Below, piece after piece: positions 2,721 through 41,931 of a DNA stretch of 64,000 bases (its first letter is position 1; each line of letters begins with the position of its first letter). The notes below the pieces were generated by a model that was not told the DNA's origin, did no database searches, and saw nothing but the letters and a program-made list of their open reading frames with translations. The translations under genes were made by a program, and so were the position numbers. Source of the stretch: Bryobacterales bacterium (GTDB lineage Bacteria; Acidobacteriota; Terriglobia; Bryobacterales; Bryobacteraceae); contig PLOR01000010.1 in the NCBI GenBank assembly GCA_003142185.1, positions 1 to 64,000 of the forward strand, in the 5' to 3' direction.

Positions 2721-3044
2721 ATGAAAAAGAACATCCCACGGCGCCGGCGGCTGGACATAGATGTGGAAGAGTTGGACCGCATCATCGATGACGCCAAGAC
2801 GCCTCCGCTGAGTGAAGCCGACAGCCAGAAGCTCAAAACGGCTCTGCATGCGCTGGCCGAGAATCTTCTGCCACAGCGAAACACGGAGAAGACCAGCTCG
2901 GTATTCGGCGATGCCGAGAAGGCTGCCTTGCAAGACATGCCGGCAGAAACAGACCAGCCTTCAGGCCACGGGCGCAACGGCGCAGTGGTGTATCGCGGCG
3001 CAGAGAAGGTTCGCATCATATACGGCCTGAAATTCAGGGCCTGA
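2721..3044 (+). pseudogene. IS66-family transposase (TnpC), 5' fragment
   Basis: The 107-residue product matches only the N-terminal part of IS66 transposases: a basic start, DIDVEELDRIIDDAKTPPLS (family pattern EL-LL-A-PL), a helical LKTALHALAENLLP stretch, then GHGRNGAVVYRGAEKVRI, which corresponds to the family segment GHGRNGA-AYxGAEK just before the zinc-binding region. A full IS66 TnpC is roughly 500 residues, so the zinc motif and the whole DDE catalytic domain are missing. After KVRI the reading frame runs into unrelated sequence and stops. It is a non-functional remnant; whether the short peptide is made is unknown. Confidence 0.65.
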
Positions 3045-3248
3045 ACTCCGCTACTGGCGGGGCTGCGAATCGACCGGGATTGGCGCCTGCGGCGTTTCTC
3101 GTCGCAGGCGCAACTGAAACGTCGACGTCATAGCGGTCCCGCCCTTCGGGAATCCCGCCGGATCTCCGGGATAAGAGGACCTCACCCCATTTCCATGTTG
3201 CTGGGTGCGCGGCCTGCGGAGGCCGTGAGTCCCGCCCCGGAGCCCACC

Positions 3249-5789
3249 TCACTCCGCGCGAAGCGCTTGAACGGTGTCCACGCGAGCAGCCCTCGCCGCT
3301 GGGACCGCCGACGCCAGGACTGCCGACGTGAGGATGAGTACCGCCGATCCGATCAACGGAAGCGGCCCTGGAAGTTGGAGTTCGGCAACGTAATTACCAG
3401 CCAGGCGCGACAGCCCCCAACCCACGAGGCCGCCTAACGCAATGCCAATCGCTGCAAGCCTCGCGCCGTCGATTAGCACTCCAGCCAGAATCCGGCGCGG
3501 CTGGGCGCCCAGCGCGAGCCGTATTCCAAACTCGCGCATACGCCAGCTCACCGAAAAGGCCAGCACGCCGGCAACTCCGATCACGGAAATCGCTAGCGCG
3601 AGGACAGCGAACCCGCCGAACACGATGGCATTGACACGGTTGTTGGCCAGAATTTCGGTGCGCACATCGTCCAGGGTGGCGGCGTGCTCGACGGGTTGGG
3701 TAGCAGCCGCAGCGCGAATGGTTTTCGTGATGGTTGTGACGAGCGCGTAAGGATCGTTTTTCGCGCGTACAACCAGGCAAGCGCCGAATATCGGCCCCTG
3801 CGCGAAGGGTTCATAGATCGTCAGGTTGCGTTGGGGGATGATGTCCGCGTCGTCCATATTCGCCACCACACCCACGATGCGCTGGGGATCGGGGCTTATC
3901 ATGCCGGCGGCATACTTGAGCATAGGATCGGTCCACAGGATGTGCCGGTCTACGGCGGATTGGCCGGGGAACAACCGCTCCGCGACGCTCTTGCTGACGA
4001 TCACTACCGGCTCGGCATCCCTCCGATCGGCCTGGGTGAAGTCGCGCCCCTCGAGAAGCGGAATCCCCAGCGTGCCGAAGTAGCCCGGGGAAACGCTGCG
4101 GAACCGTGCACGCAGATCTTCCTTGCCGCTCTCACTGGTTCTCCCCTCGACCGCGAATTGCAGAGTGAACTTGAGCATCCCGGTATCGCGCCACGGGGCC
4201 ATAAAGCCGGTTGCGGCGCCTTCCACACCCGGCAATGCACTCACCATGCGCTGGGTCTCCTGGTAGAACTGGGCCGCTTGTTTTAGCGTCCGGCCGTCGG
4301 GAATCAAAGGCAGGTTTGCGATCAGGACATGCCCGGTTTCAAAGCCCGGTTGCGCATTCTGCAGTGAAAGCAACGTCCTCACCAGCACGCCCGCGCCGGC
4401 CAGCAACAGGAACGAGGCGGCAATCTGGGTAACGGTGAAAACGCGAATCCGGCGGCGACTGCCGGTGACACGGCTGGAGCCGCTGGTGAGACCCAGCCCC
4501 CGAGAGGCATCCGTGGAAGGCAGGCGGGGAACCAGGGCGAGAAAGACCGCCGCCGCCAACGCCAGAACCAGGCCCATCCAAAGCACGCTGAAATCGACGG
4601 TCAGATCCGCCGCCCGGATCGAGTATCGCAAGGCGTAACGCGCGAGCACCGTGACCATCGGGACGGCCAACGCTACACCCGCCAAGCCGCCGCTGCCGCA
4701 CAGGACCAGGGCCTCCGCCAGCAGCGACCGGCGGATGGCGGCGGAGCTTGCTCCCAGCGCGGTGCGGAGCGCCAGCTCCGATTCGCGGCGAACGGTCCGG
4801 GCCAAGATCAGGTTCGCCACGTTCGAGCAGGCAATCACGAACAGCAAGCCGGAGGCACCCACAAGCAGCCACAGTACGGTGCTGGCCTCCGCATTGATCT
4901 GGTCCCGCATCAGTCTGGCGTCGATCTGGAAGTGATCCTGAGGCTTATACACCCCAGGATGCGCCGCCGTCACCGCCGCGTACACGGCGCGAAGCTCCGT
5001 GCGCGCGGACTTAAGGCTTGCGCCGGGCGCCAACCGGCCGAACACTTCGGTCATGCGGTGCTCGCGGCCCTGTACCATCGTTGCGGACAGGTGGTGCGGG
5101 CTGGTGACAACGTTGGCGATGATATCCGTATCGGCGGGGTATGGAATCGATGGTTCCAGAACTCCGACGATGGTTGCGGGGCGAACCTCCCCCATGCTAC
5201 CCAGCCGAATCACCTTTCCTACTACCTTGGGATCGCCACCGAGCGCGGTGGCCCAGAACTTGTAAGCGAGCACGACCGCGCCAGCGGCGCCCGGCCCATC
5301 GTCTCGCGCGTCGAGCAGGCGCCCCAGCACCGGCTTGAGACCCATCACTTCGAAGTAGCCGCCATCGACCACGCCGGCGTGGATTTCGCGCGTTTCGCTG
5401 CCGAACCCCTGCGCCGTGAAGCCGATGGTGGAAAAAGTGCCGAGTTTGCCGATGGTCTTTAAGTTGGCGCCTATGTCCGAGATCTCGGGAATCGAGAACG
5501 TGGCATCCTTCACCTGTAACCCGGGCGCGCTCTGCTGGATATAGATCAGGCGATCTTCGTCGCGATTCACCAGTGGTCGCAACAGCACCCCTCGCACTAC
5601 GCTGAAAATGGCCGCGTTCGCGCCGATGCCGAGCGCCAAGGCGAGCGCCACCGTAGCCCACAAAGCAGGAGTTCGCCGGAGGGAGCGGACCGCTACCCGA
5701 ATGTCGCCCAGAAATATGGCTGCCCACTGCAACGGGTACGAAACTCCTTCTCGTTTGCGTTCTGACTTGTCAACGGCACTGGTTGTCAT
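3249..5789 (-). CDS. ADOP-type ABC transporter permease (MacB/FtsX-like)
   Basis: An 846-residue permease of the acidobacterial duplicated orphan permease family (TIGR03434). After a short cytoplasmic N-terminus comes TM1 (residues about 43-66, ending GIGANAAIFSVVRGVLLRPL), then a MacB-like periplasmic domain, a first FtsX domain (around 315-440, with ACSNVANLILARTVRRESEL and ALRTALGAS), a second periplasmic domain (RARFRSVSPGYFGTLGIPLL), and a C-terminal FtsX domain (ISVIGVAGVLAFSVSWRMRE, IRLALGAQPRRIL). The internal duplication gives about eight membrane spans. There is no ATP-binding subunit nearby, as usual for this family. The start is the ATG 6 nt after GGGAGG; an earlier in-frame ATG has no such site. 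Substrate unknown; probably lipoprotein, peptide or drug efflux-like mechanotransmission. Confidence 0.9.
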   Translation of the reverse strand: MTTSAVDKSERKREGVSYPLQWAAIFLGDIRVAVRSLRRTPALWATVALALALGIGANAAIFSVVRGVLLRPLVNRDEDRLIYIQQSAPGLQVKDATFSIPEISDIGANLKTIGKLGTFSTIGFTAQGFGSETREIHAGVVDGGYFEVMGLKPVLGRLLDARDDGPGAAGAVVLAYKFWATALGGDPKVVGKVIRLGSMGEVRPATIVGVLEPSIPYPADTDIIANVVTSPHHLSATMVQGREHRMTEVFGRLAPGASLKSARTELRAVYAAVTAAHPGVYKPQDHFQIDARLMRDQINAEASTVLWLLVGASGLLFVIACSNVANLILARTVRRESELALRTALGASSAAIRRSLLAEALVLCGSGGLAGVALAVPMVTVLARYALRYSIRAADLTVDFSVLWMGLVLALAAAVFLALVPRLPSTDASRGLGLTSGSSRVTGSRRRIRVFTVTQIAASFLLLAGAGVLVRTLLSLQNAQPGFETGHVLIANLPLIPDGRTLKQAAQFYQETQRMVSALPGVEGAATGFMAPWRDTGMLKFTLQFAVEGRTSESGKEDLRARFRSVSPGYFGTLGIPLLEGRDFTQADRRDAEPVVIVSKSVAERLFPGQSAVDRHILWTDPMLKYAAGMISPDPQRIVGVVANMDDADIIPQRNLTIYEPFAQGPIFGACLVVRAKNDPYALVTTITKTIRAAAATQPVEHAATLDDVRTEILANNRVNAIVFGGFAVLALAISVIGVAGVLAFSVSWRMREFGIRLALGAQPRRILAGVLIDGARLAAIGIALGGLVGWGLSRLAGNYVAELQLPGPLPLIGSAVLILTSAVLASAVPAARAARVDTVQALRAE

Positions 5790-32276: not shown

Positions 32277-33311
32277 CTATCCCAGCAGCCGGTTCAATTC
32301 CCTCACCACGGCGAAGGCGTCGGCTACGTAAACCACGTCGGCTTTGCCGCGGGACCAGCCGCAGTTGGGATCGAGATTTACGGCGCGACGTTCGGTGACG
32401 AAGCGCCAGCCGACCACGTGGGGCTCTTCGCCGTGGCAGCAGGTGGAGAGTCCCTTTTGATGGCGCGGCGTGGAGCCGGTTTGGCCCACCTGGTTGAGAT
32501 GTGTCATAAAGGGCAGCACGGCTTGGCCTTCACCGCTCAAATCGACCAACGATTTGCTGCCGCCGAGCGAGGCTTGGGCGCCGCGCAACGCACCGAGGAT
32601 GAGCAGCTGCGCTTCCTCCACATGCACCGCGCCATCGGGCTGCTTCTTGGTCCAGCCGGCGCCGGCTACGAAAAGCAGCTTGGCATCGGGACGGATGGTC
32701 TGCTCATCGGCCTTGGGCGCCTGAATGCCGGTGACGGTGGTGCGCGACTGCGGCGCTTCGACCGCGACAAACTCTACCTGCGCCGAGCCGGCCGCCCTCG
32801 CCGGCGTTGCTTGAGGTGTCGCTTCGCTCCATGGCGCGAAGCAGCCGGCATCGAGAAGCACCAGCCAGGGGCGCGCGGTGCGCGTCAAAACCGCTTCCAT
32901 GCGCTGCCGGTAGAACCAGCGATTGACGGCCGGGGCGCCATCGCGCTCGGCCAGGCCCGTGGCGTGCGTGTCGATTCTGCCGCCCAACCGGTATGCCACG
33001 CCGGGAAGCGCGCGCGCCCATCGCGCGGTGGCGGGCGCCAGCACAATGGCGGCGCCGGCGGCGCGGGCAATCGCCTCTGCCGCGGCGGCATCGGTCGAGT
33101 AGCGCGGCTGGGTGAACGGCTCGCCGGTGACGGCCAGTATTCGCCGCGCTCCCGCGGCAGCGGCCAGGTTGGCGGCGGGTTCCACCGCGCCGCCCACCAG
33201 TCCGACGGTCAATTCACCGCCCAGCTCGAGCGCGGCAGTGAGAGCCTCCAGGGCCGGCTTGGCCAGCGTGCCATCGGCTTCGGTATGGGCCAAAAGTAAA
33301 ATGGATTCCAT
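32277..33311 (-). CDS. etfA: Electron transfer flavoprotein alpha subunit
   Basis: A 344-residue EtfA. The N-terminal domain (MESILLLAHTEADGTLAKPA, LAAAAGARRILAVTGEPFTQ) is the Rossmann-like ETF fold. The C-terminal FAD domain contains GAGWTKKQPDG, LGGSKSLVDLSGEGQ and VGQTGSTPRHQKG, which correspond to the family's GRG, GASRAAVD and IGQTG motifs. The region after VGQTG is divergent (STCCHGEEPHVVGWRF instead of GISGAIQHLAGM), so cofactor details may differ. It lies 1 nt after etfB. Their electron donor and acceptor cannot be told from the context, which is the end of the his operon. Confidence 0.85.
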   Translation of the reverse strand: MESILLLAHTEADGTLAKPALEALTAALELGGELTVGLVGGAVEPAANLAAAAGARRILAVTGEPFTQPRYSTDAAAAEAIARAAGAAIVLAPATARWARALPGVAYRLGGRIDTHATGLAERDGAPAVNRWFYRQRMEAVLTRTARPWLVLLDAGCFAPWSEATPQATPARAAGSAQVEFVAVEAPQSRTTVTGIQAPKADEQTIRPDAKLLFVAGAGWTKKQPDGAVHVEEAQLLILGALRGAQASLGGSKSLVDLSGEGQAVLPFMTHLNQVGQTGSTPRHQKGLSTCCHGEEPHVVGWRFVTERRAVNLDPNCGWSRGKADVVYVADAFAVVRELNRLLG

Positions 33312-33312
33312 G

Positions 33313-34125
33313 TTATTCCTCCCGTATCCAGGCGACGATTTCGCGCGCGATCTGTTCCGGCGCCATGTTCTTTTCGATGCGCGTCTCGCGCTGCTGCTTG
33401 GGCAGGCTGACCGAAACGAAACGCAGGCCCGCATCGGCCGCGGTAGCTGCTTTTGCCCGCTGCAATGCCGGCATGACGGTCTTCATATTGGCCATGCCAA
33501 CCTGCGGATTGTTGCGCGGCTCGGGCAGGAAACCGGTGGCCCAGCCCAACGCCGCGGGCGGCGCGGTGCACACCGAAACCTGGTGGCGGCCGCCTTCGAT
33601 ACGTTCCAGCACCTCGAAGCTGCCATCCTCGCGCACCGCGATCCGGTCCACGCCCTGAAACTGTTCGGTGATGCCGAGCCGTTCGGCTGTCATCTGTATG
33701 GTGGAACCGGCGCCGCGCGACGCCGATTCCCATCCGCCGAACAGCAGCAGCCGCGATTTATCGAGCCCGGGAATGGCTTCGATGGCCCCTGCCAGCGCCG
33801 CCGCGGTGGCAAAGGAATCGGTGAAGCCAGAGGCCGAGCCATCCAGAGCCACCAGCTCGAACGGCACCTTCTGCGCCACCGTCATCATCACTTGTTGCAG
33901 CTTGGCTTTGGGCCCCATGCTGACCAGCCAGACTTTGCTGCCCGGCTGCGCCAGCGCCAGGTGCGCGGCTTCATAGAGCGCGTGCGCGGCCCACGGGTCC
34001 AGCACCGCCGGCAACATCATTTCATTCTTGAGAGCGGGACCACCAGGACTGGTTACCGGCTCGAGGGTTTGTAACGGGTCGGGGACAATGCTGCCGCTGA
34101 CCACGATCTGAAGGGAGGTGTTCAT
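33313..34125 (-). CDS. etfB: Electron transfer flavoprotein beta subunit
   Basis: A 270-residue EtfB with the ETF alpha/beta fold: LDPWAAHALYEAAHLALAQP matches the family's N-Y-ALEEAL region, VWLVSMGPKAKLQQVMMTVA matches the V-GP-A--LR--LA motif, and GLDKSRLLLFGGWESASRGA matches D--L-G-Q--DG-. QFQGVDRIAV and the later PRNNPQVGMANMKTVMPALQ complete the pattern. It begins 40 nt after the hisA stop on the same strand, so it is probably transcribed with the his operon. EtfAB shuttles electrons between a dehydrogenase and a quinone oxidoreductase. Confidence 0.85.
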   Translation of the reverse strand: MNTSLQIVVSGSIVPDPLQTLEPVTSPGGPALKNEMMLPAVLDPWAAHALYEAAHLALAQPGSKVWLVSMGPKAKLQQVMMTVAQKVPFELVALDGSASGFTDSFATAAALAGAIEAIPGLDKSRLLLFGGWESASRGAGSTIQMTAERLGITEQFQGVDRIAVREDGSFEVLERIEGGRHQVSVCTAPPAALGWATGFLPEPRNNPQVGMANMKTVMPALQRAKAATAADAGLRFVSVSLPKQQRETRIEKNMAPEQIAREIVAWIREE

Positions 34126-34165: not shown

Positions 34166-34864
34166 CTACGCGGCCAGCTTCGCCAGTTCGTCCAGGCTCA
34201 AGCGGCCGGTGTAGATGGCCATGCCGAGCGCCGCGTTCACGTTCATGTCGAGCAGCGCGCGCACTTCGTCCAACGTGGTGATGCCGCCGGCGGCGGTGAG
34301 TTCGAGCGTGGTGGCCGCGCGCAGACGGCGAAACCACGCGAGGTCGGTGCCCTGCATCATGCCTTCCCGATCCACCCAGGTGGCCAGGAAGCCGCCGCAA
34401 TAGGGTTCGAGCAAGCCCAGCATCCGCTCGGCGGTGAACTCCGTGGCTTCCTGCCAGCCCTTGACCACGATGCGGCCGTCTTTCGAATCAACCGCGATCA
34501 GCAGCCGTTCGCGGCCGATGGCGCGCCCGAGTTCGCTCAGAAACGCTTCGTCGATTCCTTGCGCAGTGAAGGCCGCGGTGCCCACGATCACCTTGTGCGC
34601 ACCCTGTTCGAGGAGCGCCCGCGCGCGCTCCACCGTGCGCACCCCGCCGCCCACGCGCGTAACCGCGCGCGCCGCCAGCATGCGGACCGACTCCGCATTG
34701 GAACCGCGGCCCATCGCGGCGTCCAGATCGATCACCTGGATTTCCGGAAACTTGGCGAAGCGGCGCAGCATCTCTTCCGGGGAATCGGCTTCGAGCGCCT
34801 TCTCGCGGCCCTGCACCAGTTGCACCACCTTGCCGTCCATCAGATCGATGCAAGGGAAAATCAT
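34166..34864 (-). CDS. hisA: 1-(5-phosphoribosyl)-5-[(5-phosphoribosylamino)methylideneamino]imidazole-4-carboxamide isomerase
   Basis: A 232-residue (beta/alpha)8 barrel that isomerises ProFAR to PRFAR in histidine synthesis. Catalytic Asp candidates are in [12 protein letters not shown] (strand 1) and in the second half near [14 protein letters not shown]. Phosphate loops are RVGGGVRT and TAAGGIT. The ATG overlaps the hisF stop as ATGA, so translation is coupled. Length and motifs are normal. Confidence 0.96.
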
Positions 34865-35625
34865 CCGCTCATCCTCATCGGAATGCCGTGCCGGTCGAGC
34901 TCTTCCTTCAACTGGTTCACGGTATAAGTTCCGTAATGGAAGATGGAGGCCGCTAGCGCCGCGTCGGCGCAGCCTTCCGTCAGCACGCGCACGAAATGCT
35001 CCGGCTTGCCGGCGCCGCCGGAAGCGATGATGGGGATTCGGGTGGCGGAGGAAACCGCACGGGTCAGCGCGCAATCGAAACCGTCCTGCACGCCATCTGT
35101 GTCCATGGAAGTGAGCAGGATTTCGCCCGCGCCCAGGGCTTCGCCCCGCGCCGCCCATTCGATGACATCGGTGCCCTCATCGTCGCGGCCGCCGCGCGTG
35201 AATACGTGCCACTGCCCGGGCGCGTGGCGGCGCGCGTCGATCGCCAGCACCACCGCCTGCGCGCCGAATTCCAGGCTCAATTCGGTGATCAGCTCCGGCC
35301 GCCGCACCGCGGCCGTGTTGACGGAGACTTTGTCGGCGCCCGCCATGAGAATGCCGCGCGCATCCGCCACCGAGCGGATGCCGCCGCCCACCGCCAGCGG
35401 GATAAACACTTTCCGCGCCGTGCGTTCGACCACGCCCGCCATGATTTCGCGCGCGTCGCTGGACGCCGTGATATCGAGAAACACCAGTTCGTCGGCGCCG
35501 TCGCGGTTATAACGATCCGCCAACTCGACCGGGTCGCCGGCATCGCGCAGATTTACGAAATTGACGCCCTTGACCACGCGGCCGCCAGTGACATCGAGAC
35601 AGGGAATGATCCGTTTCGCCAGCAC
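34861..35625 (-). CDS. hisF: Imidazole glycerol phosphate synthase, cyclase subunit
   Basis: A 254-residue (beta/alpha)8 barrel. [20 protein letters not shown] carries the catalytic Asp of strand 1; the second catalytic Asp is in [16 protein letters not shown]. Phosphate-binding loops are AVGGGIRS and [12 protein letters not shown]. It uses ammonia from HisH to convert PRFAR to imidazole glycerol phosphate and AICAR. The start is a GTG that directly follows the hisH stop (TGAGTG). Confidence 0.97.
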
Positions 35626-36219
35626 TCACATCTCCACAAAATTCCGCACAATCTTCAATCCGACCGGCCCGGACTTCTCCGGATGGAATTGCACGCCGAA
35701 GACGTTGCCGGCTTCGAGCGCCGCCGTGTATGGGGCGGCGTAGGTGCAGATCGCAGCCGCGCGTGCGTCCACCGGCACGTAATAGCTGTGCGCGAAGTAC
35801 ACAAACGGCCGGCCGGGCAAATCGCGCACCAGCTTCGACTCCGGTTTCACTTCCAATTCGTTCCAACCCATGTGCGGTACGCGTGCGTCACTCGGGAAGC
35901 GGCGCACAACGCCGGCGTACAGTCCCAAGCCGCGCACCTCAGGCGCTTCTTCGCTGGCTTCAAACAGCGCCTGCAAACCGAGGCAGATCCCCAGAAACGG
36001 CACACCGGCGCGGATGCGTTCCACCAGCGCCGCGCGCACATCCAGCTCATCCAGCGCCCGCATCATCTGGCCAAAATGACCCACGCCGGGGAGCAGAATC
36101 TTGTCCGCCCGCCGCAAGCCCTCGCAGTCCCGCACCAGCGTGTAGGCGCAGCCCAACTCCGCCAGCGTGTTTTCGACCGACCGCAAATTGCCTGCCCCGT
36201 AATCGAAGATGGTGATCAT
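35626..36219 (-). CDS. hisH: Imidazole glycerol phosphate synthase, glutaminase subunit
   Basis: A 197-residue class I glutamine amidotransferase. The nucleophile Cys is in FLGICLGLQALFEASEE; the His-Glu dyad is in GVQFHPEKSG near the C-terminus. The N-terminus MITIFDYGAGNLRSVENTL is typical. It supplies ammonia to HisF. GGAG precedes the ATG. A 121-nt gap with a hairpin repeat separates it from hisB, the only sizeable gap within the his genes. Confidence 0.97.
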   Translation of the reverse strand: MITIFDYGAGNLRSVENTLAELGCAYTLVRDCEGLRRADKILLPGVGHFGQMMRALDELDVRAALVERIRAGVPFLGICLGLQALFEASEEAPEVRGLGLYAGVVRRFPSDARVPHMGWNELEVKPESKLVRDLPGRPFVYFAHSYYVPVDARAAAICTYAAPYTAALEAGNVFGVQFHPEKSGPVGLKIVRNFVEM

Positions 36220-36279
36220 GAAAGCTCCGTCGCGGCGAGGGCAGTCGTGCCGACATTTCTTGAAGTTCGCTGAGCGAAG

Positions 36280-36333
36280 AAACGTCGAGACGACTCTCGA
36301 CGCTGCAGGCAAGACTGCCCGCGCCACGGCCAC
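36280..36333. repeat. Dispersed hairpin repeat, copy 2 (inside the his operon)
   Basis: CGTCGAGACGACTCTCGACG hairpin followed by the TGCCCGCGCCACGG segment, matching 32218-32271. It lies in the hisB-hisH gap and could affect mRNA processing. Confidence 0.6.
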
Positions 36334-36340
36334 GCCCGCT

Positions 36341-36928
36341 TCATAGCAACCCCTTCGTCGAAGGCAACTGCCCCTTCAACCGCGCATCTTTCGAGCACGC
36401 ATACTGCATCGCCCTGGCCCAGCATTTGAAAATCGCCTCGACCTTGTGATGGCTCGACCGGCCGTACATCACCTTGGCGTGCAGATTCGCGCCCGCGTGA
36501 TTCACGAAGCCGCCAAAGAAATCTTCCAGCAGTTCGGCCTGCAAATCTCCCACCAGCCGCACACGCACCAGGTCTTTGTAGACCAGCGTCGGCCGGCCGC
36601 CCAGATCCACCGCCACCACCGCCAGCGTTTCGTCCATCGGCAACACAAAATACCCGGCGCGATTGATGCCTCTGCGGTCGCCCAGCGCCTGCGCGAAAAG
36701 CTGGCCCAGAACGATCCCCACGTCTTCCACCGTGTGGTGCTGGTCGACATCCAGGTCGCCTTCGGCGTGAAGCTTCAGGTCGAAGCCGCCGTGCTTGGCG
36801 AACAGCTCCAGCATGTGATCGAGAAAACGAACGCCGGTCGATATCTCATAACGGCCGAGGCCTTCGATCTTCAACCGGCCCGCGATGCGCGTCTCCTTGG
36901 TGTCGCGGCGAATAGCGGCCTGTCTCAT
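36341..36928 (-). CDS. hisB: Imidazoleglycerol-phosphate dehydratase
   Basis: A 195-residue monofunctional dehydratase with the Mn-binding His motifs: [20 protein letters not shown], the [17 protein letters not shown] motif, and the second-half copy [20 protein letters not shown] followed by HKVEAIFK. It lacks the fused HAD phosphatase of enterobacterial HisB, so histidinol-phosphatase must come from another protein, probably its neighbour. The ATG overlaps the stop of the HAD gene as ATGA. Confidence 0.97.
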
Positions 36929-37605
36929 TCTGCGAACACCTCTTCGAGATAGTTGATGTCATCGACAATGGCGTACGCGCCCTGCTCCTGAAAAAGAAAG
37001 ACCAGGTCGATGTAGAGCGGGTTGGAGGGCGGCGCAATTCCGATGAACGGCGCGCCGGCTGCGCGCGCGCATCGCGCGTCATCCACCGTGTCGCCCACGT
37101 AGTAAGCTTTCGCGCCGGGGTTCGCGTCGAGTATTTGCAGCAAGCCCTCCGGATCCGGCTTGTGCCGCCGCACCTCATCCATGCCGACGATGGGCGAAAA
37201 CTCGAGCTCCGGCGCGAACCGCTGTAGGGTCAGCTCGGCTTCCCACTTCGGCCGCCCGGTGAAGAGCGCGAAACGAAATTGCCGGTTGAGTTTTTCGAGC
37301 GTCCCCGGCCGTGCCACCCACTGCTCGCGCAGCATCAGGCCATCCGTTCCATTGCCATGGAAAATCGACTGGAAGTGCACCTTCACTTGCTCAAATGGCG
37401 TGTCGACGCCCGCTTCGGCGACGATGTGGTGCGACAATTTCCAATCGTCGTTCCAACCGCCCTGGTTCTTGAACTGCTGAATTTCGGCGGGCGCGAGCCG
37501 GCGGCCGGTGAAATGCTCCACCGTGCGCGCGATGGTCTCGCGGTAGGATTCCGTGACGTCCACCAGCACGCCGTCCATATCGAAAATCAGGATCGGTTGA
37601 CTCAT
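36925..37605 (-). CDS. HAD phosphatase, likely histidinol-phosphatase
   Basis: A 226-residue HAD subfamily IA protein of the TIGR01548 type. Motif I is FDMDGVLVD (D9, D11), motif [13 protein letters not shown], motif III Lys in RRHKPDPEG, and motif [14 protein letters not shown]. The cap lies between residues about 17 and 90 ([20 protein letters not shown]). It is wedged between hisC and hisB with 4-nt ATGA overlaps on both sides, and no PHP or HisB-N phosphatase is present. I therefore infer that it performs the histidinol-phosphate to histidinol step. The family itself is not biochemically assigned. Confidence 0.85.
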
Positions 37606-38687
37606 CGTTGCCAGATCTTCTCGAGCGCTTCCAGCAAACGCCGGGTCTGCTCGCGCGTGCCAACCGTGATGCGGACGCACCCGGGCGCTTCGTAGCTGCG
37701 GTCGCGCACCAGGATGGCCTGCGCGCCCAGCGCCTTGCACACCTCCAGCGCACGCGCGCCAAAGCTCCCCAAAACGAAATTCGCCGAGCTGGGGATGTAA
37801 CGGATGCCCAGCTTTTCCAGGCCATAGCACAACAGTTCGCGCGCGGCCAGCACTTCGGCCACGTAGGTCCGGACATAGTCCGCGTCCGCCACCGCCGCCT
37901 GCGCCGCAATCACCGCCAGCGAGTTCACGCTGTAGGGCGATTGCGCCTTGTGCAGCAAGCGAACATTCGCCTCGTGCGAAAACAGGCAGCCCAGCCGCAT
38001 GCCCGCCATGCCGAACACTTTCGAAAACGTGCGGCTCACGAACAGGTTCGGCACGCGCTCGATTTCGCCGAGCGCCGTCACGCCGCTGAACTCGAAGTAT
38101 GCTTCGTCGACCAGCACCACACACTTGCGCGCGCGGTGCAGAATGCGCTCGATCCCTAATAGCGAAACGCCGGTTCCGGTTGGGTTGTTGGGATTCGCCA
38201 GCAGGATGGCGCGCGTTTCCGGCGTGATCGCCTCCAGCAGCGCATCCAGCGGAAACTCCATCCCCGGCGGCGCGTATTCCACTTCGCGAATCCGCGCGCC
38301 CGCAACTTCCGCGTAGAAGCGATACATGGCGTAGGCCGGCTTCAGCAGCAGCACTTCCTGGTGATCGTCCACGTAGGTGTTGATGAAAACCTGGATCGCC
38401 TCATCGGTGCCGTTGGTAAAAACGAACTGCTCCGGCCGCACGCCGAAATAACTCGCAATCGTCTGTTTGGCGTCGCCGTATTCCGGATACACTGCCAGGC
38501 TCGCCGCATCGAGCGCTTGAGCCAGCGCTTCGATCACGCGCGGCGAGCAGCCCACCGTGTTTTCGTTGAAGTCCAGCCGCAGTTTGCCCGCGCGCCCCGC
38601 CGTGGGCGGCGAATAGGGCGCCATGGCCAGCACGGCCGGCCGCGGCTGAATGGCGCCTCGCGGCAGCTTGGGCGGTTTACCGCGCAT
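37602..38687 (-). CDS. hisC: Histidinol-phosphate aminotransferase
   Basis: A 361-residue fold-type I PLP enzyme. RLDFNENTVGCSPRVIEALA is the N-terminal signature; FTNGTDEAIQVFINTYV, LANPNNPTGTGVSL and VVLVDEAYFEFSG follow; the PLP Lys is in SRTFSKVFGMAGMRLGC and an Arg for the carboxylate is in GCVRITVGTREQTRR. Its stop overlaps the HAD start (ATGA), and its own start overlaps the 3' end of hisD by 11 nt. It transaminates imidazole acetol phosphate. Confidence 0.97.
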   Translation of the reverse strand: MRGKPPKLPRGAIQPRPAVLAMAPYSPPTAGRAGKLRLDFNENTVGCSPRVIEALAQALDAASLAVYPEYGDAKQTIASYFGVRPEQFVFTNGTDEAIQVFINTYVDDHQEVLLLKPAYAMYRFYAEVAGARIREVEYAPPGMEFPLDALLEAITPETRAILLANPNNPTGTGVSLLGIERILHRARKCVVLVDEAYFEFSGVTALGEIERVPNLFVSRTFSKVFGMAGMRLGCLFSHEANVRLLHKAQSPYSVNSLAVIAAQAAVADADYVRTYVAEVLAARELLCYGLEKLGIRYIPSSANFVLGSFGARALEVCKALGAQAILVRDRSYEAPGCVRITVGTREQTRRLLEALEKIWQR

Positions 38688-39945
38688 TGGTCCGCACCTC
38701 CACCGATCGCGCGTGCGCTTCCAAGCCTTCGGCGCGCGCCAGGGTGACGATCGCCGGCTTGATTCGCGCCAATCCCGCCGCGCTCAATTGCTGCACGGAA
38801 ATCACTTTGACGAAATCCGTCACCGCCAGGCCGCCGCGCACACGGGCCGCGCCGCTGGTGGGCAGCACGTGATTCGGTCCGGACGCATAGTCGCCCGCCG
38901 CTTCGGGGCTGTACGGTCCGACGAAGACGCTGCCAGCGTGCTCGATCCCAGCGAGCAGCCGCGCATCCGGGATGCTCAGGTGTTCCGGCGCGAAGCGGTT
39001 GGATATTTCCACCGCTTCCTCGATCGACCGCACCAGCACGATGGCGGAATTGCGCGCGATCGATTGCGCCGCCACGGCCGCGGTCGGCAGCGTGGCAAGC
39101 TGCCGCTCCACTTCTTTCGCCACCGCCGCCGCCAGCCGCCGCGAAGTCGTCAGCAGCAATGCCGTTGCGTCCACATCGTGCTCCGCCTGCGCGAGCAAAT
39201 CGGCGGCCAGATAGCGTGGATCGCTCTCGGTTGCGATAATCAAAATCTCCGTCGGCCCGGCCACGAAGTCGATGCCCACTTCTCCCGCCAGCAGTTTTTT
39301 CGCCGCCGCCACGTAGATGTTGCCCGGCCCCACGATGCGGTCGGCCTTGGGCACGGTGCGCGTGCCGTATGCAAATGCCGCGATGGCTTGCGCGCCGCCC
39401 ATTTCAAAGACGCGCGTGAGGCCCAGCATTGCCGCCGTTCCCCACACCTGGTCCACCGGTTTGGGCGAGGCCACGCAGATGTTCGCGACCCCCGCCACCT
39501 GCGCCGGCACGGCTGTCATCAGAATCGTCGAAGGCAAGGGATAGCGCCCGGCCGGAACATAGGCGGCGACCGTCCCGAGTGGCCGGACCACTTGCCCTAC
39601 GCGCACGCCGCCCGATTGCCGCATCCATGCCCGCGGCATCTGCCGCCGCGCGAAATCGCGTATGTTGGCGGCAGCGGTCCGCACCGCGCGCCGGAATTCC
39701 GGGCTCAGCCGCCGCCGCGCGGCCGCCAGATCCTCTTCGGAAACGCGCACCGTGCGCCGTGCCAAGCCGTCGAACTTGCGCGCGTATTCGAGCAGCGCCC
39801 GGTCGCCGCGCTTGCGGACGTCTTCGAGGATCGGCCGCACCACCGCCTCCGCCGCCTCCATCCGCGCCGCCCGCCGCGCAAACAGTGCGCTCGAATCTTC
39901 ACTTTTGATAATGCGAATCACGGGGCTCTTGATAATCCGAATCAC
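38677..39945 (-). CDS. hisD: Histidinol dehydrogenase
   Basis: A 422-residue HisD, catalysing the last two oxidations to histidine. [20 protein letters not shown], the [16 protein letters not shown] motif, [12 protein letters not shown], and [20 protein letters not shown] with its base His and Zn ligands are all present. Its GTG start overlaps the hisG stop as GTGA. Odd: the first 16 codons are a tandem duplication (MIRIIKSP, then VIRIIKSE), so there are two GTG starts 24 nt apart, at 39945 and 39921. Confidence 0.97.
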
Positions 39946-40811
39946 AGCACGATCTTGTTGAGCGGGTACTCCACGATTCCTTGCCCGCCCGCCTGCTTGA
40001 GCCGCGGAATGATATCGCGCACCGTCGATTCATCGAGGATGGTGTTCACCGCCAGCCATTCCTCGTCGCTCAATTGTGAAATGGTGGGCCGCTTCAGCGC
40101 CGGCAGCACCGCCAGCACGGCCTTGAGGTCGTCCCGGTGTACGTTCAGCATCAGCCCCACTTTGCCCAGCGCGTTGATGGCGCCCTGCAGCAGCATCGTC
40201 ATGTCTTCCAGCTTTCGCCGCTTGGCCGCGTCCTCCCACGACGCGCGGTTGGCGATCAATTGCGTGTTCGATTCCATCACCGTGTCGATGATTTTGAGCT
40301 TGTTGGCGCGCAGCGACGAGCCGGTTTCCGTCACCTCGACGATGGCATCGGCCAGCACCGGCGGCTTCACCTCCGTGGCGCCCCAGCTAAATTCCACTTT
40401 CGCCGCCACGCCGTGCCCGGCCAGGTAGCGCCGCGTGGTCTCCACCAGCTCGGTCGCGATGATCTTGCCTCCCAGGTCTTTCACGCTGAGGAACGGCGAG
40501 GCCTCCGGCACCGCCAGCACCCAGCGCACTTTGCCGAAGCTCTGCTTGGCGTAGATCAGGTCCGCCACCGCGACCACTTGCGCGCCGTTCTCTTCGATCC
40601 AATCGCGGCCGGTCAGGCCCGCATCGAGAATGCCGTCCTCCACGTAGCGCGCCATTTCCTGCGCCCGGATCAGCATGCACTCGATCTCCGGATCGTCGAT
40701 GCCGGGAAAATACGACCGGCTGCTGGTGGTGATGACATACCCGGCGCGGCGGAACAGATCCACCGTGGCGTTTTCGAGGCTGCCTTTGGGGATGCCCAGT
40801 TTCAGTTTCAC
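39942..40811 (-). CDS. hisG: ATP phosphoribosyltransferase, long form
   Basis: A 289-residue long-form HisG, the committed step from PRPP and [23 protein letters not shown] starts the catalytic domain; [18 protein letters not shown] and the PRPP loop region [16 protein letters not shown] follow. The C-terminal ACT-like regulatory domain (about 215-289) confers histidine feedback and makes HisZ unnecessary. It begins at a GTG that overlaps the hisI stop (GTGA), with GGAGG about 7 nt upstream. Confidence 0.97.
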
Positions 40812-41188
40812 GCCTTGCCTCCGTAGACCGCTTTGGGATCGTAGGTCCGCTGGTCCACGACTTTCCAAACGCCCGAATCCAGGCGCCGGAAGAAGCAGCT
40901 TTCGTAGCCTTCATGGCAGACGCCGGGGCCCTGCGCTTCCACCTTCACCAGCACCGCATCGCGGTCGCAATCGACGGCGATTTCCTTCACCAGCAGCCGG
41001 TGGCCCGAGCTTTCGCCCTTCAGCCACAGCTTCTGCCGCGAACGGCTCCAGAAGGTCGCAAAGCCGCTTTCCACCGTCTTGCGAAAGGCCTCCTCATTCA
41101 TGAAGCCGACCATCAGCACGCGGCCGCTCGAGTGGTCCTGGATAACGGCGGTGATTAGGCCGCCGGATTTTTCGAAATCGAGATTCAT
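40808..41188 (-). CDS. hisI: Phosphoribosyl-AMP cyclohydrolase
   Basis: A 126-residue monofunctional cyclohydrolase. The signature runs [53 protein letters not shown], then the zinc/magnesium ligands in [12 protein letters not shown] and the Cys pair [13 protein letters not shown]. There is no fused HisE domain and no hisE in the operon. It is the first structural gene of the his operon. The start is the ATG directly after the terminator-like hairpin; an in-frame ATG at 41236 would translate through that hairpin and is not used. Confidence 0.96.
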
Positions 41189-41196
41189 CGGTAAAC

Positions 41197-41225
41197 AAAA
41201 AAAGCCCGCCGTTTTCGCGGCGGGC
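41197..41225 (-). terminator. Intrinsic terminator of the his leader (attenuator)
   Basis: On the transcript, GCCCGCCG and CGGCGGGC form a perfect 8-bp GC stem with loop CGAAAA, followed at once by seven Ts. It ends 8 nt before the hisI ATG, so if it forms no his mRNA is made. It is helix 3:4 of the attenuator. Confidence 0.85.
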
Positions 41226-41250
41226 GTCCTTTCCATGTGTTTAGTGGAAA

Positions 41251-41313
41251 TTATTGCAGCGCCCGTCGCGTGGAGAGATGGTGATGATGCCGCGCGAGGG
41301 TGACGCTTGCCAT
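41251..41313 (-). CDS. hisL: his operon leader peptide with four consecutive His codons
   Basis: A 20-codon frame, MASVTLARHHHHLSTRRALQ, then TAA. Residues 9-12 are CAT CAT CAC CAT (41278-41289). It sits 62 nt before the hisI start and immediately upstream of the intrinsic terminator, the position of the E. coli his leader peptide (which has seven His). There is no clear Shine-Dalgarno sequence before the ATG; if TGCTACACT is the -10, the message would be leaderless or nearly so. Confidence 0.8.
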   Translation of the reverse strand: MASVTLARHHHHLSTRRALQ

Positions 41314-41396
41314 AAGAAAGTAGTGTAGCACAGCGGCGGATGGCTATACTCAGAGGGAGGTGAATCGATAGGGTGCGCCCGCCGAAACGCCGTCGA

Positions 41397-41475
41397 GGTA
41401 GGACAGTCGATCGTTTTTTGTTGACTGTCGTTAGCCGGCATTGACAGGCCGCAAGAACCGATGGCCTGTCCTACC
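41397..41475. repeat. Composite palindromic repeat (BIME-like), copy 1
   Basis: Outer arms GGTAGGACAG and CTGTCCTACC enclose two hairpins (GACAGTC/GACTGTC and GACAGGCC/GGCCTGTC). The same architecture recurs at 42852-42943. It lies between the his leader and the antitoxin gene. Confidence 0.65.
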
Positions 41476-41511
41476 GTAGACCTCACCCTGCAACGGCGGA
41501 GCGGAAGCTAT

Positions 41512-41931
41512 ATGAGGAAGGCTAAGAAACCGGCTGCTGCCCAAGTTCGTTCCGAATACAAACGCTCGGATTTCGGTCCGTTGGTCCGCGGGAAGTACAT
41601 TCACCGGCTCCGGGCGAGTTCGAACGTGGTAGTGAAGAACCCCGTGCATCCCGGTCGCATTGTCCGGCACGATTGCCTCGAGCCTTTGGGTCTGTCTGTG
41701 ACCGCCGGAGCAAAGATCCTCGGCGTCACCCGGCAGACTCTCACCAAGATCGTTAACGGCAAGTCCGGCATCAGCCCGGAGATGGCGATCCGGCTAACGA
41801 AGGCATTCGGCAGCACGGAGGAGACCTGGTTACGGATGCAACTAGCCTGCGACCTTGCCGCCGCCCGCAAAGACGAGAGCAAAATCAAGGTGCGCCGCCA
41901 GTTCGTCCCGCAAGAATTGCACGTGCAATGA
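41512..41931 (+). CDS. Chimeric HigA-family antitoxin (orphan)
   Basis: A 139-residue protein that joins two antitoxin modules. Residues about 14-41 (SEYKRSDFGPLVRGKY, HRLRASSNVVV) are the conserved N-terminus of small toxin-linked proteins that normally continue LxPxVAxxFP. Here the sequence switches at residue 42 to KNPVHPGRIVRHDCLEPLGL, the start of HigA antitoxins, followed by an XRE helix-turn-helix (VTAGAKILGVTRQTLTKIVN) and SPEMAIRLTKAFGSTEETWL. There is no HigB toxin gene on either side. GGAG lies upstream of the chosen ATG. It may regulate its own promoter or a distant toxin; that is inference. Confidence 0.85.
   Translation: MRKAKKPAAAQVRSEYKRSDFGPLVRGKYIHRLRASSNVVVKNPVHPGRIVRHDCLEPLGLSVTAGAKILGVTRQTLTKIVNGKSGISPEMAIRLTKAFGSTEETWLRMQLACDLAAARKDESKIKVRRQFVPQELHVQ

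Follow-up and report, generated by a model that had tools for sequence, protein, structure and literature searches.

A predicted, probably leaderless His leader-peptide attenuator before the his operon of a Bryobacterales bacterium and its relatives in Acidobacteria

Known histidine leaders and the leader before hisI

Ribosome-mediated attenuation is a textbook mechanism, and the his leader of E. coli carries seven His codons in a row. In hisL of E. coli and Salmonella and in the his leaders of other Proteobacteria, consecutive His codons, 1:2, 2:3 and 3:4 helices, and a terminator precede the first his gene, as given in the part of PMC9413887 drawn on here. According to the same part of that paper, his leader-peptide attenuators are also predicted in Firmicutes lineages, 17 species in three lineages being named for his operons, and the leaders of the Bacillus cereus group, Peptostreptococcaceae and relatives, and Erysipelotrichales carry three to five consecutive His codons with terminator and antiterminator hairpins. 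Leaders before hisS/hisZ in Firmicutes are reported in the sections used of PMC2965389. Thus, the statement in a preliminary description of the locus treated here, that his attenuation is described mainly in Gammaproteobacteria, is out of date. For Acidobacteria, almost none of the attenuators predicted by the 2010 survey had an associated function, as far as the sections used go (PMC2965389), and no report of a his attenuator in this phylum was found among the literature matches listed, earlier mention in older surveys being possible.

We analyzed a window of 64,000 nucleotides from a Bryobacterales bacterium (positions 1 to 64,000 of contig PLOR01000010.1, assembly GCA_003142185.1), in which a short leader frame, MASVTLARHHHHLSTRRALQ (MASVTLAR-HHHH-LSTRRALQ; 20 codons), runs on the minus strand from an ATG at 41313–41311 to a TAA stop codon at 41253–41251, leaving a gap of 62 nt before the hisI ATG (41188–41186). 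Its four consecutive His codons, CAT CAT CAC CAT (41278–41289), constitute the presumed ribosome stall site. Further downstream, the terminator scan returned a hairpin (C:D; GCCCGCCG-CGAAAA-CGGCGGGC, 41204–41225) with eight pairs, all of them G-C, and a 6-nt loop, followed by the tract TTTTTTT (41197–41203), which ends 8 nt from the hisI start. Both elements had been claimed in the preliminary description; the frame with its four His codons 62 nt before hisI proved exact to the base, and the scan agreed on the 8-bp GC hairpin (41225–41204) and the seven Ts behind it (41203–41197). Within the 601 nt scanned there were two terminator-like sites, the second on the plus strand, compared with 0.6 expected, and the 142-nt leader region folded with a z of −3.1.

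Three segments, all on the minus strand, make up the alternative folds. Segment 1 (A; TCGCGCGG, 41290–41297) is paired with 41266–41273 at 7 of 8 positions (41297–41290 with 41273–41266) by sequence and fold. Segment 2 (B; CGCGACGGGCG, 41260–41270), the putative antiterminator strand, lies inside the codons of ...STRRAL, and its partner, segment 3 (C; CGCCCGCCGCG, 41216–41226), contains the terminator 5′ arm. The core 2:3 helix (41265–41260 with 41226–41221) is paired at all six positions, and the extended 2:3 helix (41270–41260 with 41226–41216), as read from the window sequence, at 10 of 11. The helices 1:2 and 2:3 first described are therefore both present, but they do not exclude each other as originally written, because 41266–41273 and 41260–41265 have no base in common; the 1:2, 2:3, 3:4 scheme holds because the extended 2:3 helix overlaps both helix 1:2 and the terminator 5′ arm. 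The sequence contains a segment behind the stall codons that can pair with the terminator 5′ arm and would then exclude the terminator, together with two further features by which ribosome-mediated attenuators are classed, repeated codons for the amino acid that the operon makes and a predicted intrinsic terminator before the first gene.

Compared with E. coli hisL, whose general layout it shares, the locus has hisI as its first gene, four His codons in a row, an antiterminator strand within the final leader codons, and a leader that looks leaderless; no sequence relation was seen, in that no Rfam leader family matched. The likeness to the Firmicutes his leaders lies in the number of consecutive His codons and in the terminator and antiterminator hairpins (PMC9413887, in the part drawn on); the difference is that the present leaders belong to another phylum, in which they occur in most sampled families of the class and in 11 of 26 loci from other classes. 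Independent evolution relative to Proteobacteria is plausible. An Rfam scan of the whole window placed only two tRNAs at or above the gathering threshold and no leader family. At E values up to 10, the region 41100–41450 gave eleven weak matches, none of them a His leader, and the best of these, isrD at 23.3 bits (threshold 37) and Thr_leader at 21.4 bits (threshold 55), fall below threshold; no known Rfam element was found at this site.

Conservation of the leader and covariation of B with C

To the 80 best of 559 confirmed hisI matches in named genomes we added 30 loci of a family sample (hisI being present in 59 of its 61 genomes) and the window itself, giving 111 loci with 93 distinct upstream regions as judged by the last 200 nt. 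A His leader was defined as an ATG frame 8–45 codons long that contains at least 4 His within a stretch of 8 codons and stops 40–200 nt before hisI. Such a frame was found in 82 of the 93 distinct regions of this best-match set, compared with 3 of 1860 dinucleotide shuffles and none of the 93 antisense strands, and no His-rich frame with a terminator occurred on either strand of 98 control loci (trpE-, leuA-, ilvB-, and pheA-family matches). The shuffles, antisense strands, and control loci rule out a chance origin of the His leader. In 72 of the 82, the stretch between leader and hisI contained a hairpin of less than −8 kcal/mol followed by a T-rich tail, the tail being required by the scan itself; the other 10 had no hairpin passing the scan. 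His codons were used in both forms (287 CAT and 189 CAC over the 82 leaders), which fits selection on His and not on nucleotides.

The 11 regions failing the His definition were inspected by eye. In L029, a His-rich frame begins with GTG; four (L047, L087, L104, and L112) have weaker clusters of 3 His in 8 codons, and the frame of L113 is very short and contains 2 His; in the upstream regions of L021 and L043, no His leader was seen. In the remaining three (L037, L054, and L096), the TATACT box of the promoter and the GCCCGCC hairpin are retained, but the His leader between them is absent. These are possible natural cases of leader loss; the hairpin of L054 has no good T-tract, and L037 and L096 may represent a single event.

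Outside the His run, the C-terminal ends of the leader peptides vary: many first-set leaders have RRA there and some have MGG or VGG, and in the wider families described below, CQR or CQW (groups f4 and f6) and VSAAVSG or VSAE (group f9) occur. The terminator 5′ arm likewise changes across lineages (GCCCGCCG compared with CCCGCTGGCA or CCCGCTGAC), and complementarity to the leader is retained. Shuffling at single loci gave weak results: at the 5% level, 30 of 82 loci surpassed their shuffles in B:C pairing and 13 of 80 in A:B pairing, the latter statistically weak, with the A:B helix present in the window. Because of these weak per-locus results, we also applied a permutation across loci, and both are given here. 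As related sequences are not independent, the permutation figures that follow are inflated and are not probabilities: the pairing of each B with its own C was 2.58 kcal/mol better than predicted from row and column means over 122 loci (permuted S.D. 0.23; 0/5000 permutations) and 1.51 kcal/mol better over the 82 hisI leaders alone (0/5000 permutations), and with six groups as the permuted units, the true pairing ranked 4 of 720. The 122 loci are the 82 plus 40 of the 50 wider leaders (left out were L120, L169–L172, L182, L184, L193, L194, and L198), and the group label f1 in this test covers all 82, of which at least L068, L076, and L088 are filed under other taxa.

Covariation was also followed base by base in 55 of the 82 leaders, after 13 without the motif, 9 without a terminator, and 5 without an anchor had been dropped. 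Outside the GGGC core, position +1 was paired in 33 of the 55, compared with 21.3 in shuffled pairings (0/5000; 17 T-A, 6 G-C, and 5 C-G), position +2 in 22 compared with 15.6 (111/5000), and position +3 in 35 compared with 23.8 (1/5000). The four inner B:C positions are uninformative in this respect because C hardly varies there, and position −2 inside the helix was unpaired in 41 of the 55 loci. Of the 82 leaders, 50 had the B core in frame 0, 8 had it in frame 2, and 7 had it in frame 1; it was missing from 17. These figures were obtained with GGGC preferred as the anchor, since the last GGG[CT] misses the pairing core in six RRAGF leaders; with the last GGG[CT] as the anchor, the frame counts were 44/15/6, and the preference for GGGC improves positions +2 and +3 and leaves +1 unchanged. 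The covariation of B with C and the occurrence of the B core in different reading frames indicate selection on the RNA in addition to that on the His run. The check proposed at the outset, conservation of His run and helices among relatives, has come out in favor of the element, with the 1:2 helix its weakly supported part.

Promoter, proposed mechanism and rival explanations

When the 82 leaders were aligned on the ATG, the sequence TGnTATACT appeared mostly 8–9 nt upstream, with TTC or TTT immediately before the ATG. In the window, the corresponding extended −10 element is TGC-TACACT (41322–41330, minus strand), 8 nt before the leader ATG. TGnTAnnnT was present in 71 of the 82 leaders and in none of the 82 at control positions, and the −10 box stood 8–9 nt from the ATG in 61 of the 70 leaders with a 5-of-6 match. 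The alignment contains no conserved −35, and a standard σ70 scan, which requires one, found no promoter at the leader of the window. Shine-Dalgarno-like sequences preceded 1 of the 82 leaders compared with 17 of the 82 hisI starts. Among 40 of the wider leaders of the class and phylum, TAnnnT lay within the last 20 nt in 33, compared with 2378 of 8000 mononucleotide shuffles; its distance was scattered and most often 8–9 nt (18 of 33), and a Shine-Dalgarno-like sequence was seen in 3 of the 40.

The usual spacing between −10 box and start site puts an RNA start shortly downstream of the box and so, at these loci, at the ATG or up to about 2 nt before it. The extended −10 element at a near-fixed distance and the near absence of Shine-Dalgarno sequences lend support to the earlier guess that the leader peptide is translated leaderless, which it probably is. 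A precedent is the trpL RNA of Sinorhizobium meliloti, which begins at the leader ATG as the RNA of the window appears to do from its −10 box, unlike which it belongs to tryptophan and to Alphaproteobacteria and has a 5′ end that the part of PMC7298713 drawn on states from earlier work.

Judged from its sequence features, the his element is very probably a classical ribosome-mediated transcription attenuator with a leaderless, or nearly leaderless, leader peptide. The start site, translation, stalling, termination, and histidine response that we infer would run as follows. RNA polymerase would start at the leader ATG, or within ∼2 nt of it, from the extended −10 promoter, and ribosomes would load onto the emerging 5′ end of the RNA and translate the leader. 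With ample His-tRNA, the ribosome would reach the stop codon and cover B, allowing the terminator C:D to form and the RNA to end after ∼117 nt. With charged His-tRNA scarce, the ribosome would stall on the four His codons, leaving B free to pair with C before D is made, so that no terminator would form and the whole his operon would be transcribed.

This course was compared with a fold model of 72 leaders, in which the parts covered by the ribosome were blocked, the blocked length to 9 nt past the A site being an assumption. In the model, the terminator was favored in 70 of 72 with the ribosome at the stop codon, where B is blocked by construction, and in 66 of 72 with the full RNA and no ribosome. 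Before synthesis of D, B:C was favored in 63 of 72 when a ribosome was stalled at the second His codon of the cluster, and already in 35 of 72 when the RNA carried no ribosome. At equilibrium with a stalled ribosome and the full terminator, B:C was favored in just 12 of 72; the predicted switch must therefore be kinetic and decided during RNA synthesis, as in the classical model.

Other readings of the element were weighed against the same data. The strong conservation of the His-rich frame could point to a functional micropeptide, for example one that binds metal, with an ordinary terminator behind it and no attenuation. However, the residues other than His change freely, 15 of the 82 leaders have the terminator-complementary motif in a different reading frame, B covaries with C, and the element heads his operons that begin with different genes (hisI, or hisG or hisD in L184, L193, and L198), which makes a micropeptide highly improbable. 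We regard as no more credible an attenuator served by another sensor, such as a T-box, a riboswitch, or a protein binding the leader RNA, with the His run as a secondary feature: a terminator and alternative helices would be present there too, but tRNA alone reaches its Rfam threshold within the window, and the His run is retained in 82 of the 93 regions.

A slim chance is left to translational or mixed control, in which the leader would act on hisI translation by reinitiation or by sequestration of the site. It is in line with the closeness of hisI to the T-tract (8 nt), with a frame from 41236 that crosses the hairpin in frame with hisI, and with a reported peak of leader-gene distances close before structural genes (10–11 bp in Actinobacteria), which includes Acidobacteria in the part of PMC4833913 drawn on; against it stand the T-tailed hairpin in 72 of the 82 relatives (the tail being required by the scan), the seven Ts of the window, and a leader stop codon that, at 62 nt from hisI, is too far away for the reported reinitiation peak. 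A His sensor of the proposed kind, if as widespread as it appears below and readable from sequence, predicts a histidine-responsive short RNA. The leaderless layout, if true, raises the question of whether ribosomes can load at a bare 5′ terminus quickly enough to match the pace of RNA polymerase, as attenuation requires.

Distribution of the leaders and genes around them

Beyond the best-match set, hisI was present in 78 of 81 genomes of a class sample and 72 of 119 of a phylum sample, and a part of these matches, 80 loci with up to 10 kb of upstream DNA each (four from the family of the window), was searched for leaders. A His-rich frame with a scanned terminator was found at 42 of the 80, compared with one in the antisense of the same 719,554 bases. 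Eight loci with a well-placed leader and a hairpin failing the scan (L123, L131, L145, L154–L156, L173, and L184) were added by eye, which brings the count to 50 of 80, including two with an unsettled link to his. Leaders were present in groups f1 (4/4), f2 (1/1), f4 (9/11), f5 (8/8), f6 (7/7), f9 (9/9), and f10 (1/1) and in other classes of the phylum (11/26); none was found in f3 (0/5), f7 (0/5), and f8 (0/3), which together comprise 13 loci, three of them very short stretches, nor in 2 of the 11 f4 loci and 15 of the 26 loci of other classes. Absence is not firm in L138, L161, L163, and L191, whose stretches are shorter than 1.5 kb, or in L183, where the stretch stops right at hisG. Where hisG or hisD comes first in the operon, the leader sits before that gene (L184, L193, and L198); in L182 and L194, it lies 1.2–1.5 kb upstream of the hisG match, and its membership of a his operon is provisional. 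The element is therefore not peculiar to the source organism; many of the lineages sampled across the phylum have one as well.

Two loci from Chthoniobacterales MAGs (L068 and L076) have a hisI ∼73% identical to that of the window, terminators, and short His leaders (MHHHRHRHVL and MTDRIHHRHHHAI). Possible origins are transfer of operon and attenuator to or from Verrucomicrobia and misbinning of the contigs.

Ile/Leu/Val-rich leaders with a terminator were found before ilvB at 15 of 24 ilvB loci above the family cut-off in the family sample, which includes the genome of the window (for L273, one of these 24, upstream DNA is missing). All 15 lie on the ilvB strand about 180–330 nt upstream of the match, and eight more such frames without a terminator occur in the 26 ilvB loci counted. 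In the genome of the window (G000:C39, locus L268, upstream of ilvB at 2744–4423), the leader is MSFACTGRSAFAHLAGIPVRIVIISLVIVAGPA, with the Ile/Val-rich part ...RIVIISLVIVAGPA, followed by the terminator GGCCATCAG...CTGGTGGCC and a T-tract; from its sequence, it appears to be a further attenuator of the his type. Corresponding searches at trpE- (at least 3 W of 8), leuA- (at least 5 L), and pheA-family (at least 3 F) matches returned no such leader in the right place, these being loose controls in that a trpE match lay above the family cut-off in 0 of 26 genomes and a leuA match in 5 of 26. Two W-rich frames, one inside a gene (L213) and one on the opposite strand (L224), look like chance.

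Putting these distributions together, we hold it slightly better than an even chance that the following is true as a whole: an old and largely unnoticed family of leaderless attenuators would control histidine synthesis, and the ilvB operon through Ile/Leu/Val codons, across much of Acidobacteria, with −10 box, start codon, stall codons, antiterminator, and terminator forming one module of ∼130 bp before whichever gene leads the operon; it would perhaps have entered Verrucomicrobia together with the his genes, and some species would have lost the leader and kept a bare promoter and terminator. The regulation of amino acid synthesis in Acidobacteria, which are common soil bacteria, is little charted; the covarying sequences are on hand for a possible new Rfam entry, and the candidate cases of leader loss offer a natural comparison.

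Behind the leader, the gene content claimed earlier (his genes plus etfBA) was confirmed by NCBIfam and Pfam models, with hisA below its cut-off, as a predicted operon on the minus strand. The first structural gene, hisI (40808–41188), matched NF000768 at 155.2 bits, above the cut-off, and is followed by hisG (39942–40868; TIGR00070 and TIGR03455; the longest frame was taken and the start is provisional), hisD (38677–39945; TIGR00069), hisC (37602–38687; TIGR01141), a HAD-family hydrolase (36925–37602; PF13419 and PF00702; start provisional), hisB (36341–36928; NF002111), hisH (frame 35626–36333, with the domain beginning at residue 40; TIGR01855), hisF (34861–35625; TIGR00735), and hisA (34166–34861, the matched part of the frame 34166–35158; best match TIGR00007 at 166.8 bits, under the cut-off of 228.95). 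The HAD hydrolase between hisC and hisB is a possible histidinol phosphatase. Directly behind hisA lies a pair of ETF-domain genes (32277–34125; PF01012), etfB-like at 33313–34125 and etfA-like at 32277–33434, which known etf subfamilies match weakly; judging by spacing only, they are possibly the end of the his transcript.

Just upstream of the his promoter, we observed an inverted repeat (41397–41475) with 33-nt arms that are 79% complementary (GGTAGGACAGTCGATC...GGCCTGTCCTACC). A search with the region gave at least 25 further matches in the genome (40 of 75 candidates were scored), all within 41377–41460, which makes this a dispersed REP-like element. The divergent gene at 41461–41931 on the plus strand encodes a helix-turn-helix protein (HTH_3, 43.4 bits) with a weak match to YdaS_toxin below the cut-off, which we take to be perhaps HigA-antitoxin-like.
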